Below, piece after piece: positions 17,360 to 24,202 of a stretch of DNA of 64,000 nt. The stretch is from Occultella glacieicola (GTDB lineage Bacteria > Actinomycetota > Actinomycetes > Actinomycetales > Beutenbergiaceae). The notes under the pieces are model-generated. The model saw only the letters and a list, made by a program, of their open reading frames with translations. It was not told the DNA's origin and did not search any database. A program made the position numbers and the translations under genes. Where the stretch lies: NCBI RefSeq assembly GCF_004353825.1, contig NZ_SMNA01000001.1, positions 434,001 to 498,000 of the forward strand. The letters run 5' to 3'. Numbering within the stretch: position 1 is the first letter of the stretch; every line of letters begins with the position of its first letter.

Positions 17360-17670
17360 GTTCACTTGTCGAGGGGATTCGGGTGGGCCCCTTACGGGCC
17401 GTCGCTCGATGGCGACATCTGCGCGCGCAACATAGGCGGCGGTATGCCCTATGTCAATACCAACATGGCCGTCCCCGTCCCGTAGCAGTGGTGGGGCGCG
17501 GACTTGGAACCCAGGCCCGTCGGCCTAGACGGTATGTAGCGACCCGGTCGCTGTGACGGGGGTGCGGGCCGGGGCCTCGCTCACGAGATTCGTGGGTTAC
17601 CGAGTAGGGGCTGCCTGCTCGGCCTATCCGACATTCGTGGGAGGCCCCGGAGTTTACCGAGCGTACGAGC

Positions 17671-18729
17671 GTGGGGCTCGACGTGCACGCACGATCGATC
17701 GTTGCAGCAGCGATCGACGGCGTCACGGGCGAGCTCATCCAGTCCAGACTGACCCCGTCGCATGTGCACATCCGCTCCTGGCTCGCCGACCTGCCTGGCC
17801 CAGTGGCGGTGGCCTATGAGGCGGGCCCGACTGGCTTCGGCCTGTCCCGTTCGCTGACCGCGGCGGGGATCAGGTGTGAAGTGGTGGCGCCCTCGAAGTT
17901 GCAGCGCCCCAGCGGTGACCGGGTCAAGACCGATGCCAGGGACGCGGTGCACCTAGCGCGGCTGCTGCGACTGGATGAGTTCACCGCGGTCTGGGTCCCG
18001 ACCCTGGATCAGGAGACCGCCCGTGATCTGGTCCGGGCGCGTGAGGACGCCCGCGGTGACTTGATGCAGGCCCGGCACCGACTCTCCAAGCTGCTGCTGC
18101 GTCAGGGCCTCGTCTACTCCGAAGGCCGCGCCTGGACCGGGGCGCATGAGGCCTGGCTGCGTCGGCAGCGTTTCCAGTCACCGGCGCTGCAGCTGGCGTT
18201 CGAGTCCGACTTCGAAGCCGTGCTCACGGTGCAGGCGCGGCGGGACCGACTCGATGAAGCGATCGCGATGGCCCAGGACAGTGAGTTCACGCCGATTGTG
18301 CGGCGACTGGGCTGTCTGCGAGGGATCAGCAACCTAACCGGGCTGGCTTTGGCGGTCGAGGTCGGCGACTGGCACCGCTTCACCGGTAACAGCATCGGCT
18401 CCTTCGTCGGGCTGGTCCCCTCGGAGTGCTACTCCGGCGCCTCACGGGTACAGGGCTCGATCACCAAGACCGGAAACACCCACCTGCGGCGACTGCTGGT
18501 CGAGGCCGCCTGGCACCACCGCGCCCGCTACGCCATCGGCAAGACCATCCAAGACCGATGGGAGCTGGCTCCAGTGGCCGCCCGCGCCCGCGGAGACGCC
18601 GGGAACCGGCGCCTGCACGCCCGCTGGAACAGTTTCCGCGAACGCCGCAAGCGGCACGTGGTCGCCAACGTCGCCATCGCCCGCGAGCTGTCCGGCTGGT
18701 GCTGGTCCCTGGCCGTTCTCGAGGAGTAG
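17671..18729 (+). CDS. IS110 family transposase (recombinase)
   Basis: A 352-residue transposase with an N-terminal DEDD/RuvC-like domain (GLDVHARSIVAAAID; YEAGPTGFGL; DRVKTDARDAVHLARLLR) and a C-terminal transposase_20 domain holding the conserved catalytic serine region (YSGASRVQGSITKTGNTHLRR). The protein appears full-length, so the element could be active. IS110 enzymes are guided by an element-encoded bridge (seek) RNA that pairs with donor and target DNA. The GTG start fits, though the frame is open slightly upstream. Confidence 0.95.
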   Translation: MGLDVHARSIVAAAIDGVTGELIQSRLTPSHVHIRSWLADLPGPVAVAYEAGPTGFGLSRSLTAAGIRCEVVAPSKLQRPSGDRVKTDARDAVHLARLLRLDEFTAVWVPTLDQETARDLVRAREDARGDLMQARHRLSKLLLRQGLVYSEGRAWTGAHEAWLRRQRFQSPALQLAFESDFEAVLTVQARRDRLDEAIAMAQDSEFTPIVRRLGCLRGISNLTGLALAVEVGDWHRFTGNSIGSFVGLVPSECYSGASRVQGSITKTGNTHLRRLLVEAAWHHRARYAIGKTIQDRWELAPVAARARGDAGNRRLHARWNSFRERRKRHVVANVAIARELSGWCWSLAVLEE

Positions 18730-18998
18730 CCCACCGCTTCGCCGACCAACGTGGTGCAAGCAGCGCGTGGAGCGACCCGCGACGCAACTATGAGCAGCCC
18801 GGTCCCGCCAGGTGACGCTCGACCCTAGACACGCGGCCCGCTCCAGCCGAACACCCCGTCCTGCGGTAACCAACCCGCGCATATCAGTCTGACCGCGCGT
18901 CGCCAACGACGCGCTCACCACCGACACCGTCGACGAAGCAGAGGCGCCCGCCCCACCAACACGGGACGGGCGCCTCACTCTGCCACTTGACAGAAACG
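18730..18998 (+). ncRNA. Candidate bridge/seek RNA region of the IS110-type element
   Basis: About 270 bases of noncoding DNA lie between the transposase stop and the right repeat. In the IS1111 group the guide RNA is encoded downstream of the recombinase. Several hairpins are possible, the strongest at 18941-18976. I have not folded the RNA or located guide loops, so position and limits are inferred from element layout only. Confidence 0.35.
18941..18976 (+). terminator. Hairpin near the right end of the IS110-type element
   Basis: Arms GAGGCGCCCGCCCC (18941-18954) and GGGACGGGCGCCTC (18963-18976) pair at 13 of 14 positions around an 8-base loop. There is no T-run, so it may end transcripts from either side or be a structural part of the guide RNA. 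Confidence 0.5.
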
Positions 18999-19006
18999 GC
19001 TACATA

Positions 19007-21364
19007 TCAGTTGCCGGCGGTGGGAACCGTTTCCAAGTATGGGTGATAAGCGTCGTGAATCTTGAGCCTTTGTTCGGGCACCCGTGGTTGCACCCTCCGC
19101 GCCAATGCCTCGACCCGTTCACTTTCGCTTCCGACCTCCGGGTAAACGAAGTCATTTGCATGTGCTTCCGGCCCCAGCACGCATATCGATATCAGCTTTT
19201 CGATCGTTCGATCCACGCGGTCCTCCGCAATACCTGCCTCCACCAGCCCAGTCGACAACTGCGCACGAGAGAGGATGGCAGGAGCGCCTAAGAGAGAGTA
19301 CAAAGCGCTTCGGAGCTCGGGAACAGTAACCCCGTTCTCCACCAACAGCGCATCGAACGCATAGTTAGAGTACACCTCGCGTGCAGCAATCATGTCGCTA
19401 CACGTTATCCTATTATTGCCGCGGTCAATGGCGCTTGCTACGGCCGCGTTCGCCAAGACCAGGACATCTCTGGGTCGGGGTTGAACGCTCGACGCTATGA
19501 ACGTACGCGTATCGATGTCGTTAACCTCTGGCGGAAAGACTTCGTCCCACACGCTCTTGCCTGGCCGTCCGCCGGCTTTGACTTCGTACCGAGCCTCGAG
19601 CACGTGCAGCAGAGTATTGGCGTCCTGCCATTTCACGGTTGAGAGAGGGAGCTTGTCGGGCTCACGAGCCTCGGTGCGCAGGTAGTGATAGATGTCGCTG
19701 CGCAGGAACACGGACACTGTCAGGCGCACTCGGTCGCGCCACCAATCTTGGCGATCAAAATCGCGCACTACGTTGCCTCGGGCCACGAGCAGACCCAGGA
19801 TGAACTTCGCCACTAATCGCAAGTCGACATTCTTGTCCCAACCTTTATCGAGGTTGTCGACAAGAATTGCGACTCGCCTCCGCGTGCGGAGCACGCCTCC
19901 GAGGACAGACCGCAACTGATTGAGCGCCTGTGCGTGAAACGCCTCATTGATGAGGTCCCGCCGAGGTGAACTCGAGTCCCCAGACGCGACTCGGTGCGAC
20001 AAGTGGTCGAGTGTCTGCTCAAGTCGTGTCGAGATGTCTGCGCGAAGGTCGAACGGCGCGTTCTCAACGTAGTTGATGAACCGTTGCTCGTCAGCACTCA
20101 CCGGGATGGTCGGGCCTCGTGCGTCGATGGCTTGAAGGACCGCAGACCCGACTTCGGATTGTATGACGAAGCGCCAGAGCGCATCGAAAAAGTAGTCCTG
20201 TTGTCCAGCAGGAAGGCTCATGACGGTCTCGAACATGGCTGGGAACTCGAAGGCGGGCGGTTTGATGAGGACTACGAGGTTCGTCTTGTTTGCGCGCAGG
20301 TGGTCGAGTGCACGAAATGCATTCGCCGTCTTACCTGTCCCCCGGTGGCCAACGAAGATGGTGTCCCGCGCATCGATGACGTCGTTGTAAGCTGACGTTT
20401 CGACGAAGTATTCGGAAAGTTCATTCAACTCATTCTCGGCAACATGCTCTCCGAATTTGAGGAGCGAGAGAGGGTTCCTTGGAGAACGTCGGGGCCTACT
20501 CCAGTCAACGCCTTCGAACGGCAGCGAGTCGAGCCAATCTCGAGCGAGTTGCACGCACTCTCGGGCGTACGTGTACTTCTGCAGAAGGGCCTCGTAGTCG
20601 AACGGGGCGTCGTACTCGGGTTCGGCCAACATGAAGATCGGCGTATCCAAACCGCGTGCTAGTCCAGCTGCAATGGCGTGCCGAACATTTATGACAGTGG
20701 ATCTGTTCCTGTGTGGTCCTGCGAAGTGAATCAGTACGCCAGCACTACGCATGATTGATGGGGCGAGCCAAGTTATCGGCTCAAAACTTGACTCCTTTGG
20801 ATCGGAGACTAAGACTTGAGTGCCGCGCTTGCGACGCTCATCGATGAATGCGCTCAATCGTGAGGATGCTTCGAAAGGGTCGAATGTAGGACAGTAGAGC
20901 AGGGAATCGCGCGGCTCTGAAACCTCAGGGAGGCTTGGCTCCAGCAAGTCGTCGTAGGCGGTCCTTTCATCTTCCCACGGAGTACTCTCAAGAAGATGTG
21001 AGCTCAAGTCGGTACTGTTGAAGTAGGAGGTATAGCCCAGCGGTTTCAACGTGGACAACTCGTTGAAGTCTTGCTTGCCGCTAGTCACAGATTGGTCGAG
21101 AAGGATTCGGATCGACTTTCCCCGTGCCATTGCATAGCCGAGCTCAAAAGCGACGTTTGAGTTGAGTTGGGTTAGATCGAATACGGCCGAGGCAGATTGG
21201 TCGATTTGAGAGAGGACTCGTGAAATTACCACTCGTCCGTCGACGTCCAGATCTTCCCAACTCTTGGCAGACACGCCTTGCTGGATGAGTTGGGTGACGG
21301 TGCGTCTCATCGTGTCGCCGATACTCCGTGGGCTACTAGGGTAGCCAAAGAACACGTCGATCAT
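19007..21364 (-). CDS. TIR/NDT-like double Rossmann + Sll1717-type P-loop ATPase; candidate defence protein
   Basis: A 785-residue protein with visibly lower G+C than its surroundings. Residues 1-130 look like a TIR or nucleoside-deoxyribosyltransferase-like domain: VFFGYPSSP at the start, KSWEDLDVDGRVVISRVL, and FDLTQLNSNVAFELGYA with a candidate catalytic Glu74. Residues 153-260 look like a second Rossmann unit (SAGVLIHFAG, NVRHAIAAGLARGL, FMLAEPEYDAPFDY). Residues about 325-620 form a P-loop ATPase with Walker A GHRGTGKT (339-346) and Walker B VAILVDNLDKGWD (498-510), a motif I associate with the Sll1717 family of STAND/ORC-CDC6-like ATPases. The C-terminus looks winged-helix-like. Its stop codon falls in the IS110 repeat, so a few residues may be lost. 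Function is inferred from architecture only. Confidence 0.8.
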   Translation of the reverse strand: MIDVFFGYPSSPRSIGDTMRRTVTQLIQQGVSAKSWEDLDVDGRVVISRVLSQIDQSASAVFDLTQLNSNVAFELGYAMARGKSIRILLDQSVTSGKQDFNELSTLKPLGYTSYFNSTDLSSHLLESTPWEDERTAYDDLLEPSLPEVSEPRDSLLYCPTFDPFEASSRLSAFIDERRKRGTQVLVSDPKESSFEPITWLAPSIMRSAGVLIHFAGPHRNRSTVINVRHAIAAGLARGLDTPIFMLAEPEYDAPFDYEALLQKYTYARECVQLARDWLDSLPFEGVDWSRPRRSPRNPLSLLKFGEHVAENELNELSEYFVETSAYNDVIDARDTIFVGHRGTGKTANAFRALDHLRANKTNLVVLIKPPAFEFPAMFETVMSLPAGQQDYFFDALWRFVIQSEVGSAVLQAIDARGPTIPVSADEQRFINYVENAPFDLRADISTRLEQTLDHLSHRVASGDSSSPRRDLINEAFHAQALNQLRSVLGGVLRTRRRVAILVDNLDKGWDKNVDLRLVAKFILGLLVARGNVVRDFDRQDWWRDRVRLTVSVFLRSDIYHYLRTEAREPDKLPLSTVKWQDANTLLHVLEARYEVKAGGRPGKSVWDEVFPPEVNDIDTRTFIASSVQPRPRDVLVLANAAVASAIDRGNNRITCSDMIAAREVYSNYAFDALLVENGVTVPELRSALYSLLGAPAILSRAQLSTGLVEAGIAEDRVDRTIEKLISICVLGPEAHANDFVYPEVGSESERVEALARRVQPRVPEQRLKIHDAYHPYLETVPTAGN

Positions 21365-21592
21365 ATGCCCTCCCCATTGGAGTCAAGCGGTTGCTTTGGT
21401 TCTACACGTCGGCGAGGCGGCTGGCAAGGGCCAAATGGTGCGCCGCTTGGCGGAAGGCACGACCCAACCGATCCCCACCAGGTCGGAAGGGATGATCCTA
21501 GCGTCGGCCGGCTCGCTTGCTAGCACGAGCTGAGCGTCCATAGTGGGTTGCTAGAGACCTCCGGTAGGGCCGGTGTCTGGCCAGACTCGGCC

Positions 21593-21620
21593 TGAATTGC
21601 CCTGAATGTTCTGGAGGGTG
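21593..21620 (+). repeat. IS3 element inverted repeat, left
   Basis: Begins TGAATTGCCCTG and ends CTGGAGGGTG. It pairs with the reverse complement of 22911-22938, which begins TGAACTGCCCTG. Confidence 0.85.
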
Positions 21621-21625
21621 GTTGG

Positions 21626-22561
21626 TTACGCGACCTCCGGGATGGGGGTCACGGGCGTAGCCTGCCGGTGAGCGTGTTCGAACTCAATGGGTGGCAGTTG
21701 CCCGATTGAGGAGTGGAGGCGGTCGTGGTTGTACCAGTGGACCCAGCGGGCGACTTGCCACTCGACCTCAGCGTGGTTCTTCCAGGTCGGTCCACCGTCG
21801 TTGATCGCCTCGGTCTTGAACAGCCCGATCGTCGACTCGCACAGCGCGTTGTCCAGCGCATCACCGACGGTTCCGATGGATCCGGCGATGCCTGCCTTGG
21901 CCAGTTCGGCGGTCAGCACCAGCGAGACGTATTGAGACCCGGCATCGGAGTGGTGGACGAGCCGGCCGCGCTCCCAGGTTGCTCCGGCGCGGTGACGCGC
22001 GTCGATCGCCTGGCGCAAGGCGTCGGTGACCAGGAAGGCGCGCATGCTTGTGGCGACTCGCCAGCCCAGGATGCGGCGGGAGTACACGTCTACGACGAAG
22101 GCGACGTAGATGAACCCGGTCAGCGTCCAGACGTAGGAGAAGTCGGCCACCCACAGCTGGTCAGGCGCGGTGGGCACATGCCAGCCGCGCTTGACCAGGT
22201 CGGGATGCCGTGGCGCCTCGGCCGACCGGCGGGTCGTGGTGGTGCGGTGCCGTCCCCGGATCGCGCCCGTGATCCCGGCGATGGCCATGAGCCGGGCGAC
22301 CTGATCGCGGCCCACGTCCAGGCCGGCGCGACGGGCGGCGTGCCACAGCTTGCGCACCCCGTACACGCCCCAGTTCTCCCGGTGGAGCGTCACCAGAGCG
22401 TTGGCCAGGTAGGCCCCCTCCAGCAGCGCCGTGCTCACCGGCTGAGACTTGTGGGCGTAGTAGGTGGACGGCGCGATCTTCATTCCATGCTGAGTTAGCA
22501 CGGCGCAGATCGGCTCGACGCCGAACCGGTCCCTGTAGGTGTCGATGTAGGCCACGATCAC
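21626..22561 (-). CDS. IS3 family transposase OrfB (DDE integrase)
   Basis: A 311-residue integrase-like transposase. After an HTH_21-type segment (ENWGVYGVRKLWHAARRAG, VARLMAIAGI) comes the rve catalytic core with its triad visible: Asp in WVADFSYV, Asp in VHHSDAGSQY, and Glu in NALCESTIGLFK, followed by the family's C-terminal WYNHDRLHSSI. GTG at 22561 overlaps the expected stop of orfA (GTGA). The protein looks intact, so it could act if OrfA or the OrfAB fusion can be made. Confidence 0.95.
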   Translation of the reverse strand: MIVAYIDTYRDRFGVEPICAVLTQHGMKIAPSTYYAHKSQPVSTALLEGAYLANALVTLHRENWGVYGVRKLWHAARRAGLDVGRDQVARLMAIAGITGAIRGRHRTTTTRRSAEAPRHPDLVKRGWHVPTAPDQLWVADFSYVWTLTGFIYVAFVVDVYSRRILGWRVATSMRAFLVTDALRQAIDARHRAGATWERGRLVHHSDAGSQYVSLVLTAELAKAGIAGSIGTVGDALDNALCESTIGLFKTEAINDGGPTWKNHAEVEWQVARWVHWYNHDRLHSSIGQLPPIEFEHAHRQATPVTPIPEVA

Positions 22562-22883
22562 TTGAGTCGGCGGTCGAGCTCCGCCTGAGCGAAAACGCTG
22601 ACGCGGTCTTGAGGATCTCGTTCGCGCGCTCCAGCTCGGCCACGCGCTTCTTCAATGCGCGCACCTCCTCGGACTCACTCGAGCGAGCGGCCGCAGGCCG
22701 GCCGCCGCCGGCGCGCTCGGCCTCCTCAATCCAGTTCCGCAGCGTCGCGGGGTTAACGTCCAGGAGCGAGCCGACATGCTTCCGGGCTCCCAACTTCGAC
22801 TCGGTGCCCTCGGCGAGCTTCTCGCGGTACATCCGCACCGCCCGCTCCCGAAACTCACCGTCGTATCTCCTCGGTGCTGACAT
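22558..22883 (-). pseudogene. IS3 family OrfA with a one-base frame break
   Basis: From ATG 22883 the frame gives a typical OrfA: MSAPRRYDGEFRERAVRMYR, helix-turn-helix around LLDVNPATLRNWIEEAER, and a leucine-zipper-like coil ending ANEILKTASAF. Related OrfA proteins continue FFAQAELDR-; here that continuation (FAQAELDRRLK, stop overlapping orfB) lies in the -1 frame. A run of four T on the minus strand (A4 at 22592-22595) marks the break, as if one T of five were lost. Read without a shift, the frame runs on as nonsense for about 140 codons. OrfAB fusion would then need a +1 (not the usual -1) shift. Confidence 0.75.
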
Positions 22884-22910
22884 GAGATCCAGTCTCCTTT
22901 GCTAAATCAG

Positions 22911-22938
22911 CACCCTCCAGGAGATCCAGGGCAGTTCA
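22911..22938 (-). repeat. IS3 element inverted repeat, right
   Basis: On the minus strand it begins TGAACTGCCCTGGAT and ends CTGGAGGGTG, matching the left repeat at 21593-21620. Confidence 0.85.
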
Positions 22939-23039
22939 CCGCTGCCATCTCCTTGATCAGCCAAACGACTGCGAAGTTCCGCTGCCTACTCCGCAGCGGG
23001 CCTTATCGTGACGTAGCCTCGACGCCCAGGGAGGGTGCC

Positions 23040-23999
23040 ATGCCGTTTGAACTTGACAATCGACTCGTTGTAGGAGTCGCTTCCAGTGCCCTGTTCGACC
23101 TCTCCGACTCTGATGCAGTCTTCCGTGCGAAAGGCGAAGCGGAGTATCGGCGGTACCAGGAGCAGCACCTCAACGACACGCTCAAGCCGGGCGAGGCATA
23201 CCCGTTCATCAGGCGATTGCTCTCCCTCAACGATCTTGCCGACGCGCCGGATGACCCCCTGGTCGAGGTGATCGTGCTATCCCGCAATGATCCTGACACG
23301 GGTCTGCGCGTCATGAAATCGATCCAGGCACTTGGCCTTCCTATCACGCGCGCTGTGTTCATGCAGGGGCGGTCACCGCACAAGTTTATGCCCGCCTTCA
23401 ACATGTCCCTATTCTTGTCGGCGAGCGCCGAGGCCGTACGCGAGGCGGTGGACGCACGCCTCCCCGCGGGCCAGGTCCTGCCTTCGGCGGCCGTCGAAGA
23501 GGATGACTCCGGCGACCTCCGCATTGCCTTCGACTTCGACGGTGTCCTGGCGGATGACGCGTCGGAGGGGGTAATGCAGGCACAGGGTTTGCCGGCGTTC
23601 CACGCGCACGAGGTCGCCAACCTCGCTACGCCTCACAGCCCCGGTCCCCTAAAGGCGTTCCTCGAAGCGATCAACCGGATCCAGGACCGCGAGCAGGCGC
23701 GGTTCCTGGTAGACCCTGGGTACCGCATCAGAGTCCACGTGGCGATCGTGACCGCTCGCAACGCCCCGTCGCACGAGCGAGCCATGGGCAGTTTGAAGGA
23801 GTGGGGTGTACGGGTGAACGACGCGTTCTTCCTGGGCGGCGTGGAGAAGGCCCGTGTGCTTGAAATCCTCAAACCGCACATCTTCTTCGACGATCAAGCG
23901 GGGCACCTCGCGGGCGCCGCAAAGGTCGCGCCTAGCGTTCACGTGCCCTTCGGCATCGCGAACGCCGCTCCGCCAGCGTCGAACGAGCCGCGCCACTGA
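23040..23999 (+). CDS. 5'-nucleotidase (cytosolic NT5C1-like family)
   Basis: A 319-residue protein of the 5'-nucleotidase family related to cytosolic AMP/IMP-specific enzymes, which dephosphorylate nucleoside monophosphates. The start VVGVASSALFDLSDSDAVF, the middle IVLSRNDPDTGLRVMKSI, and the HAD-type motif FDFDGVLADD (Asp165, Asp167), then IVTARNAPSHER and HIFFDDQAGHL are all in family order, so it looks intact. ATG at 23040 follows AGGGAGGG; the frame is open farther upstream but into the IS3 repeat. It is the only gene left of its kind in the island, next to the IS3 element and the Rossmann-ATPase gene. Its island position hints at nucleotide depletion or salvage linked to defence, which is not proven. 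Confidence 0.85.
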   Translation: MPFELDNRLVVGVASSALFDLSDSDAVFRAKGEAEYRRYQEQHLNDTLKPGEAYPFIRRLLSLNDLADAPDDPLVEVIVLSRNDPDTGLRVMKSIQALGLPITRAVFMQGRSPHKFMPAFNMSLFLSASAEAVREAVDARLPAGQVLPSAAVEEDDSGDLRIAFDFDGVLADDASEGVMQAQGLPAFHAHEVANLATPHSPGPLKAFLEAINRIQDREQARFLVDPGYRIRVHVAIVTARNAPSHERAMGSLKEWGVRVNDAFFLGGVEKARVLEILKPHIFFDDQAGHLAGAAKVAPSVHVPFGIANAAPPASNEPRH

Positions 24000-24202
24000 A
24001 GGCGCATCGGACTCGGACGCTCACCGGTGCCAACGGGAGGCCTGCAGCGAGCCGACTAGAGTTCTTGTGGAGGTCGCTAACCCCTGAGACCGTCCGGCAT
24101 CGGATGCCCCAATCTGGGCGGTTTGACGCTCCCCCGCAGCAGCGCGCATCAACTCACCTCAAGGCGCGTTAGGCGTGACTTCGGCGTCGAGGGCTACCGG
24201 TC

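Follow-up and report, generated by a model that had tools for sequence, protein, structure and literature searches.

In Swarozyc, a DUF4062 TIR-like NADase, the phage portal is gripped by an auxiliary domain of winged-helix type, and the members tested in the study concerned are not described as having an NTPase switch (PMC13174449). NAD+ hydrolysis is also the activity through which the NDT effector of Retron-Eco1 acts in defence (PMC12405507). DS-41 (DefensePredictor) has been validated against phage (PMC13092281), and Avs proteins have a long C-terminal sensor.

Here we analysed a gene lying in a stretch of 64,000 nucleotides of the Occultella glacieicola genome (GCF_004353825.1, contig NZ_SMNA01000001.1, positions 434,001 to 498,000; hereafter the window, to which the coordinates of the gene, its parts and its neighbours refer). 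A single gene encodes a 785-aa protein with the layout TIR/NDT - Rossmann - STAND, which we regard as very likely to be an undescribed anti-phage defence protein, its defence phenotype being inferred.

Results

An intact gene encodes a protein of three parts

The gene occupies positions 19007..21364 of the reverse strand, as defined by the open reading frame list, NCBIfam and AlphaFold2. It is intact, with 785 codons and an ATG start preceded by a GGGGAGG ribosome-binding-like stretch, and is found in one copy in its own genome. Its G+C content is 0.566 (0.65 at third positions), compared to mostly 0.69-0.76 in the kilobases around it and to about 0.72 in the genome. With an input of 71 sequences, AlphaFold2 modelled the whole protein with a pLDDT of 89.7 and a pTM of 0.87, and residues 1-295 with a pLDDT of 92.5 and a pTM of 0.91. 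The protein consists of a TIR/NDT unit (unit 1), a second Rossmann unit (unit 2) and a STAND NTPase module, the fold being that predicted by the model. Sequence libraries gave a firm name for the C-terminal part only and weak NDT and TIR matches for the N-terminal part.

The original prediction, made from sequence alone, had claimed this reading frame, a Walker A motif at residues 339-346, a low G+C content and two different flanking insertion sequences, all of which held. It had also proposed a TIR/NDT-like N-terminus followed by a second Rossmann-like unit; this held as well, since AlphaFold2 folds the first 260 residues in this way.

The active site of unit 1 resembles that of TIR NADases

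Unit 1 (residues 1-132; 20969..21364, reverse strand) is the predicted catalytic effector and was assigned to the TIR/NDT fold by AlphaFold2, fold comparison, a DNPH1 profile match and a weak match to Pfam PF05014 (21.1 bits, under the gathering score of 28.8). Fold comparison gave Z scores of 11.4 for DNPH1, 11.3 for the SPARTA TIR (over 126 residues), 10.8 for MilB, 10.6 for AbTir and 9.7 for SARM1. The sequence matches of the N-terminal part were weak (NDT, 4e-4; CAP12 TIR, 0.18), and a profile of residues 1-295 matched DNPH1/Rcl chains at 9e-5 and NDT chains at 0.014, while TIR chains were absent from its matches up to E 10. The TIR/NDT assignment stands despite these weak matches because the fold bears it out.

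The predicted catalytic glutamate, Glu74 (codon 21143..21145, reverse strand), is the aligned counterpart of the Glu in the GYELG motif of DNPH1 and, together with N70, G76 and W36, is identical in all the sequences of the 72-sequence alignment from which residue conservation was counted. As the pattern used for the genome scan contains Glu74, conservation was rechecked in the 31 relatives with the ATPase pattern, for which the N-terminal motif is not needed, and E74, N70, D63 and W36 were kept in 31/31. The conservation of Glu74 is thus not due to chance, since relatives that can be found without the N-terminal motif retain it. The possible catalytic Glu74 put forward in the original prediction is therefore confirmed as to its conservation (72/72), while catalysis is still inferred.

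A Tyr is found beside the catalytic Glu in NDT, DNPH1 and EcThsB2, forming a hydrogen bond with that Glu in NDT and DNPH1, and a Phe or Ala in NADase TIRs (PMC11204291). In the structural alignments, the first model residue pairs with DNPH1 residue 20 and with SARM1 residue 561, which places Phe5 at the position of DNPH1 Tyr24, assuming that the first residues of those alignments are gap-free; in the alignment of 72 sequences, Phe occupies position 5 in 65, with Leu in four, His in one and a gap in two. Column 50, the equivalent of human DNPH1 Asp80 (which is mutated in entries 8rpt and 8rps), holds Ile (56 sequences) or Val (16 sequences) throughout, and the DNPH1 phosphate-binding Ser position is Asn in 66/72 and Ser in five. 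Because the DNPH1/NDT-type Tyr is replaced by Phe and DNPH1 Asp80 by Ile/Val, the active site points to NADase chemistry of TIR type rather than to the hydrolysis of deoxynucleotides, an inference made without biochemical data on NAD+ hydrolysis; the original TIR-or-NDT label is hence refined to a TIR-like rather than NDT-like active site. Nor does the NDT look of unit 1 argue against NADase activity, since the NDT effector of Retron-Eco1 itself acts by way of NAD+ hydrolysis. Module swapping was not shown: when the N-terminal module was sought on other C-termini, the only matches were full-length members and a generic 45-residue NDT motif, the latter in 67/326 Bacteroidota.

Unit 2 is a Rossmann-like unit without the glutamate

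Unit 2 (residues 151-290; 20495..20914, reverse strand) was delimited by AlphaFold2, alignment and hhalign, and its residues 154-279 contain strands and helices in the same order as unit 1. An hhalign comparison of the two units placed all strands and helices in register with an E of 0.0026 and a probability of just 4.7%, against E values of 0.02-0.3 for four ATPase pieces used for comparison. The equivalent of Glu74 is Ala232 here and Ile, Val or Leu across the family, and D188, E191, G234, P254 and D256 are near-invariant. Unit 2 is likely to be a Glu-less duplicate of unit 1; this is inferred, the weak hhalign support being suggestive and not a proof. From conservation, without ligand data, we infer that the near-invariant set may form a binding surface.

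The C-terminal module is a putative STAND switch

Residues 298-785 (19010..20473, reverse strand) form an NTPase of STAND/ORC-Cdc6 type with a winged helix, of the Sll1717 family, as judged by NCBIfam and fold comparison. Residues 304-777 match the Sll1717 P-loop ATPase model (NF047389) at 6e-78, with 262.9 bits against a cut-off of 75, and the fold of residues 300-780 gave Z scores of 14.3 with the NRC4 resistosome, 14.0 with SSO1545, 13.9 with ORC2, 13.7 with RPP1, 13.4 with CED-4 and 11.3 with RdrA. The Walker A motif GHRGTGKT (residues 339-346; 20327..20350, reverse strand) and the Walker B region (residues 499-506; 19847..19870, reverse strand), with the invariant Asp503 and Asp506, were identified by sequence and conservation; K345, D503, D506 and R555 are identical in 72/72 relatives. 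In the AlphaFold2 model the last helix spans residues 771-777 and the protein ends at residue 785, without C-terminal LRR/TPR repeats. The ATPase is, in all likelihood, a switch of the NLR/ORC-Cdc6 STAND type with a nucleotide-binding domain (NBD) and a winged helix, its fold being predicted by the model. The earlier Sll1717-type assignment accordingly held and is refined to such a switch, and a Walker B placed at 498-510 held and is refined to L501-V-D-N-L-D506.

A 508-aa ATPase-only Sll1717 protein was observed near what seem to be type I restriction genes (L193, 1030-4083 and 5704-7230). The ATPase chassis may thus also be found by itself in defence-like surroundings.

The gene lies at a site of exchangeable cargo

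The gene belongs to a variable island (17416..24183) that is absent or replaced in three congeners, in which the DNA on both sides continues with 86-91% identity. In the window the site holds an IS110 family transposase (17671..18729, forward strand; NCBIfam, 3e-59), the 785-aa gene, an IS3 family element (21593..22938, reverse strand) and a 5'-nucleotidase (22899..23999, forward strand; PF06189, 1e-123; PADLOC candidate PDC-S08, 2e-137). The IS3 element is bounded by 28-nt terminal inverted repeats (21593-21620 and 22911-22938) and contains a transposase at 21626-22883 (NCBIfam, 7e-78); the start of the nucleotidase reading frame overlaps its end, and the PF06189 domain begins near 23040. No clear direct repeat of the target was seen at the ends of the IS3 element, a state that might result from rearrangement of one flank once the element had inserted. 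The G+C content of the PDC-S08-type nucleotidase (0.63) is likewise lower than that of its neighbours. The neighbours of the 785-aa gene in the window, namely IS110, IS3, 5'-nucleotidase, M50B and YCII genes, include no partner gene, and neither here nor in the annotated plasmid copies does a ThsA-like or other receiver gene adjoin it.

One congener has merely about 236-250 bp between the flanks, that is, an empty site; another has a subtilase in the interval; in the third, the interval encodes a SIR2_2 protein of 676 aa (PADLOC candidate PDC-S65, 9e-144) together with a DUF4143 protein that matches PDC-S01. The site is thus a hotspot with exchangeable defence-type cargo within the genus. The mobile defence island of the original prediction is in this way upheld, mobility and a hotspot within the genus being supported and defence itself inferred.

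In congener G439 (L147, 3055-5085), the SIR2_2 gene was observed beside a DUF4143 fragment and a gene for a 448-aa protein that neither Pfam nor PADLOC matched, a set that could represent another defence cassette at the hotspot.

Relatives are widespread, patchy and often mobile

A genome scan confirmed 210 relatives, of which the best 80 were kept; full-length relatives occur in more than 20 phyla, including the archaeon Methanofastidiosum. The 43 genomes checked have in essence one full-length copy apiece. By tblastn, 14 plasmid records were found, 12 of them covering more than 80% of the protein, in Rhodococcus, Leptolyngbya, Leptospira, Ochrobactrum, Paraburkholderia, rhizobia and others. 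No relative was found in phage records or viral contigs, the viral scan being limited to short exact peptide patterns. Within the window's phylum, any match was seen in only 4/396 genomes and full-length members are rare, the other three genomes having two ATPase-only proteins and one protein cut by a contig end; the latter, a 46% match, was rejected as an ATPase-only protein because of this truncation. The tree has 28 phylum changes (minimum 21, shuffled mean 53), so that the family is clustered by phylum with some mixing, a pattern compatible with transfer.

The copy on a Rhodococcus plasmid adjoins TIR and DUF4062 genes; among other relatives, AbiE-type genes and a TIR-like gene between recombinases (L069) were found as neighbours, and copies also lie beside MobF relaxase, type IV secretion genes, integrases and IS elements. 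A tally of neighbours in 20 genomes against control stretches taken from those genomes showed restriction-modification and helicase families to be just modestly commoner, with PADLOC models that overlap too much; the small difference in Pfam neighbours concerned Eco57I methylase, SNF2, PLD and resolvase, versus sigma factors, ABC and SRP in the controls. Homologues sitting solely in housekeeping contexts, which would have refuted the original prediction, were not seen: the relatives are patchy and often plasmid-borne or beside integrases or defence genes.

The Rhodococcus qingshengii plasmid copy (L005, 9971-12364), which lies beside TIR, DUF4062 and WD40-repeat genes, has one in-frame stop at codon 106 and may be a pseudogene or reflect a sequencing error.

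Discussion

The reading that we favour, with moderate confidence and without any experiment, is that of a one-gene anti-phage receptor, in which a STAND switch would oligomerise the TIR/NDT domains, leading to NAD+ destruction and abortive infection. In the resting state the C-terminal STAND NTPase (NBD and winged helix) would be held ADP-bound; a cue of infection would cause its nucleotide exchange and oligomerisation, which would cluster the N-terminal TIR/NDT domains, and these, by means of Glu74, would cleave NAD+ (or NADP+) at its N-glycosidic bond; the infected cell, deprived of NAD(P)+, would then stop growing or die. Since no LRR/TPR repeat region follows the switch, we propose that regulation or ligand sensing falls to unit 2, the probable copy lacking the Glu. 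The fold in three parts, conservation of both active sites, the single-gene layout, the mobility of the gene and its place at a hotspot are shown; oligomerisation, the NAD+ substrate, the trigger and the defence phenotype are inferred, and the trigger is unidentified because there are neither C-terminal sensor repeats nor a partner gene. The defence reading rests on the SIR2 (PDC-S65) gene, subtilase or empty site of the congeners, the plasmid relatives, the TIR and DUF4062 neighbours and a distant kinship with DS-41. Against the NADase-receptor reading stand the sequence profile, closest to DNPH1 and not to TIR, and the same lack of sensor repeats and partner gene; the modest excess in the neighbour tally weighs little either way. 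As a bolder and more tentative reading, the protein may be a minimal prokaryotic TIR-NLR whose repeat sensor has been replaced by an internal dead duplicate of the effector, which would sense a nucleotide signal, such as an infection product or a modified nucleotide of the phage, and gate the STAND switch; effector and sensor would then stem from one duplication inside a single protein.

Among the alternatives, one that leaves the STAND switch and the defence role unchanged is that the N-terminal domain is an N-glycosidase of NDT/DNPH1 type that destroys (deoxy)nucleotides, for instance modified phage dNMPs, and not NAD+. In its favour, the residue 1-295 profile finds DNPH1/Rcl and NDT and no TIR, and DNPH1 and the CMP N-glycosidase MilB are among the best folds. 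It is nevertheless unlikely given the changes at the Asp80, Ser and Tyr positions, and the Retron-Eco1 NDT effector itself works via NAD+. Less probable still, the domain could make a signalling nucleotide, cyclic ADP-ribose or a base-exchanged adenine dinucleotide, as ThsB does, and either a second protein or its own unit 2 would read this signal. Such TIR folds do make signals in Thoeris (PMC11204291) and in plants, and the conserved D188, E191, G234 and D256 of unit 2 could bind a nucleotide; however, neither in the window nor in the annotated plasmid copies is there a receiver gene next to it, which makes this alternative very unlikely.

It could also be argued that the protein is a regulator or serves the maintenance of mobile elements (plasmid stability, exclusion of other elements) and not phage defence, since copies lie beside conjugation, integrase and IS genes and no phage record has one. 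We consider this improbable: within the window's genus, a SIR2 gene of defence type can take the place of this gene at the chromosomal site, and immunity is a better fit than housekeeping for a STAND switch that carries a TIR/NDT effector.

If the favoured receptor reading is true, the family would be a widespread single-gene relative of plant TIR-NLRs, in more than 20 phyla and at least one archaeon, with the same effector and switch and no repeat sensor. It would show STAND immune receptors to be able to function with a sensor that arose from their own effector, and would offer a compact single-protein system for studying how STAND switches fire. The domain edges, the two active sites and the empty congener site make the reading directly testable.

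No PADLOC, NCBIfam or Pfam model covers the whole TIR/NDT - Rossmann - STAND layout and no paper describing it was found in the literature searched, although priority cannot be claimed, as most subscription papers and supplements were outside our reach. The original claim that no described system has this layout thus held in PADLOC, NCBIfam and the literature searched, but the protein belongs to a large family and is not isolated. With that, none of the three results named as refuting the original prediction came up, and its interpretation is supported, with defence itself inferred. Among known systems, DS-41 shares with it the P-loop ATPase superfamily of Sll1717, but the match to DS41_1 (NF053860; 1e-11, 44.5 bits) is far under the cut-off of 370, and that model, of 448 positions, lacks the TIR/NDT and second Rossmann units. 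Thoeris differs in that the adjacent ThsA effector gene is missing here. Retron-Eco1 has a similar NDT-like effector domain with defence via NAD+ hydrolysis, but needs a reverse transcriptase and msDNA, none of which occurs among the neighbours examined of the 785-aa family. Swarozyc is likewise a single protein with a TIR/NDT-related N-terminus and a catalytic Glu, patchy and mobile, whereas the 785-aa protein has in addition a STAND module and a second Rossmann unit, and no Pfam match to DUF4062 up to E 1. Avs5 (SIR2-STAND) and other bacterial STAND defence proteins also place an NAD-consuming N-terminal effector on a STAND NTPase, but the 785-aa protein ends after the winged helix. The NBD-winged-helix STAND switch is shared with the plant TIR-NLR RPP1, which also has an N-terminal TIR, and with the CED-4 and NRC4 resistosomes; from these the 785-aa protein differs in being prokaryotic, in doing without C-terminal LRR/WD repeats and in carrying an extra Rossmann unit between effector and switch.
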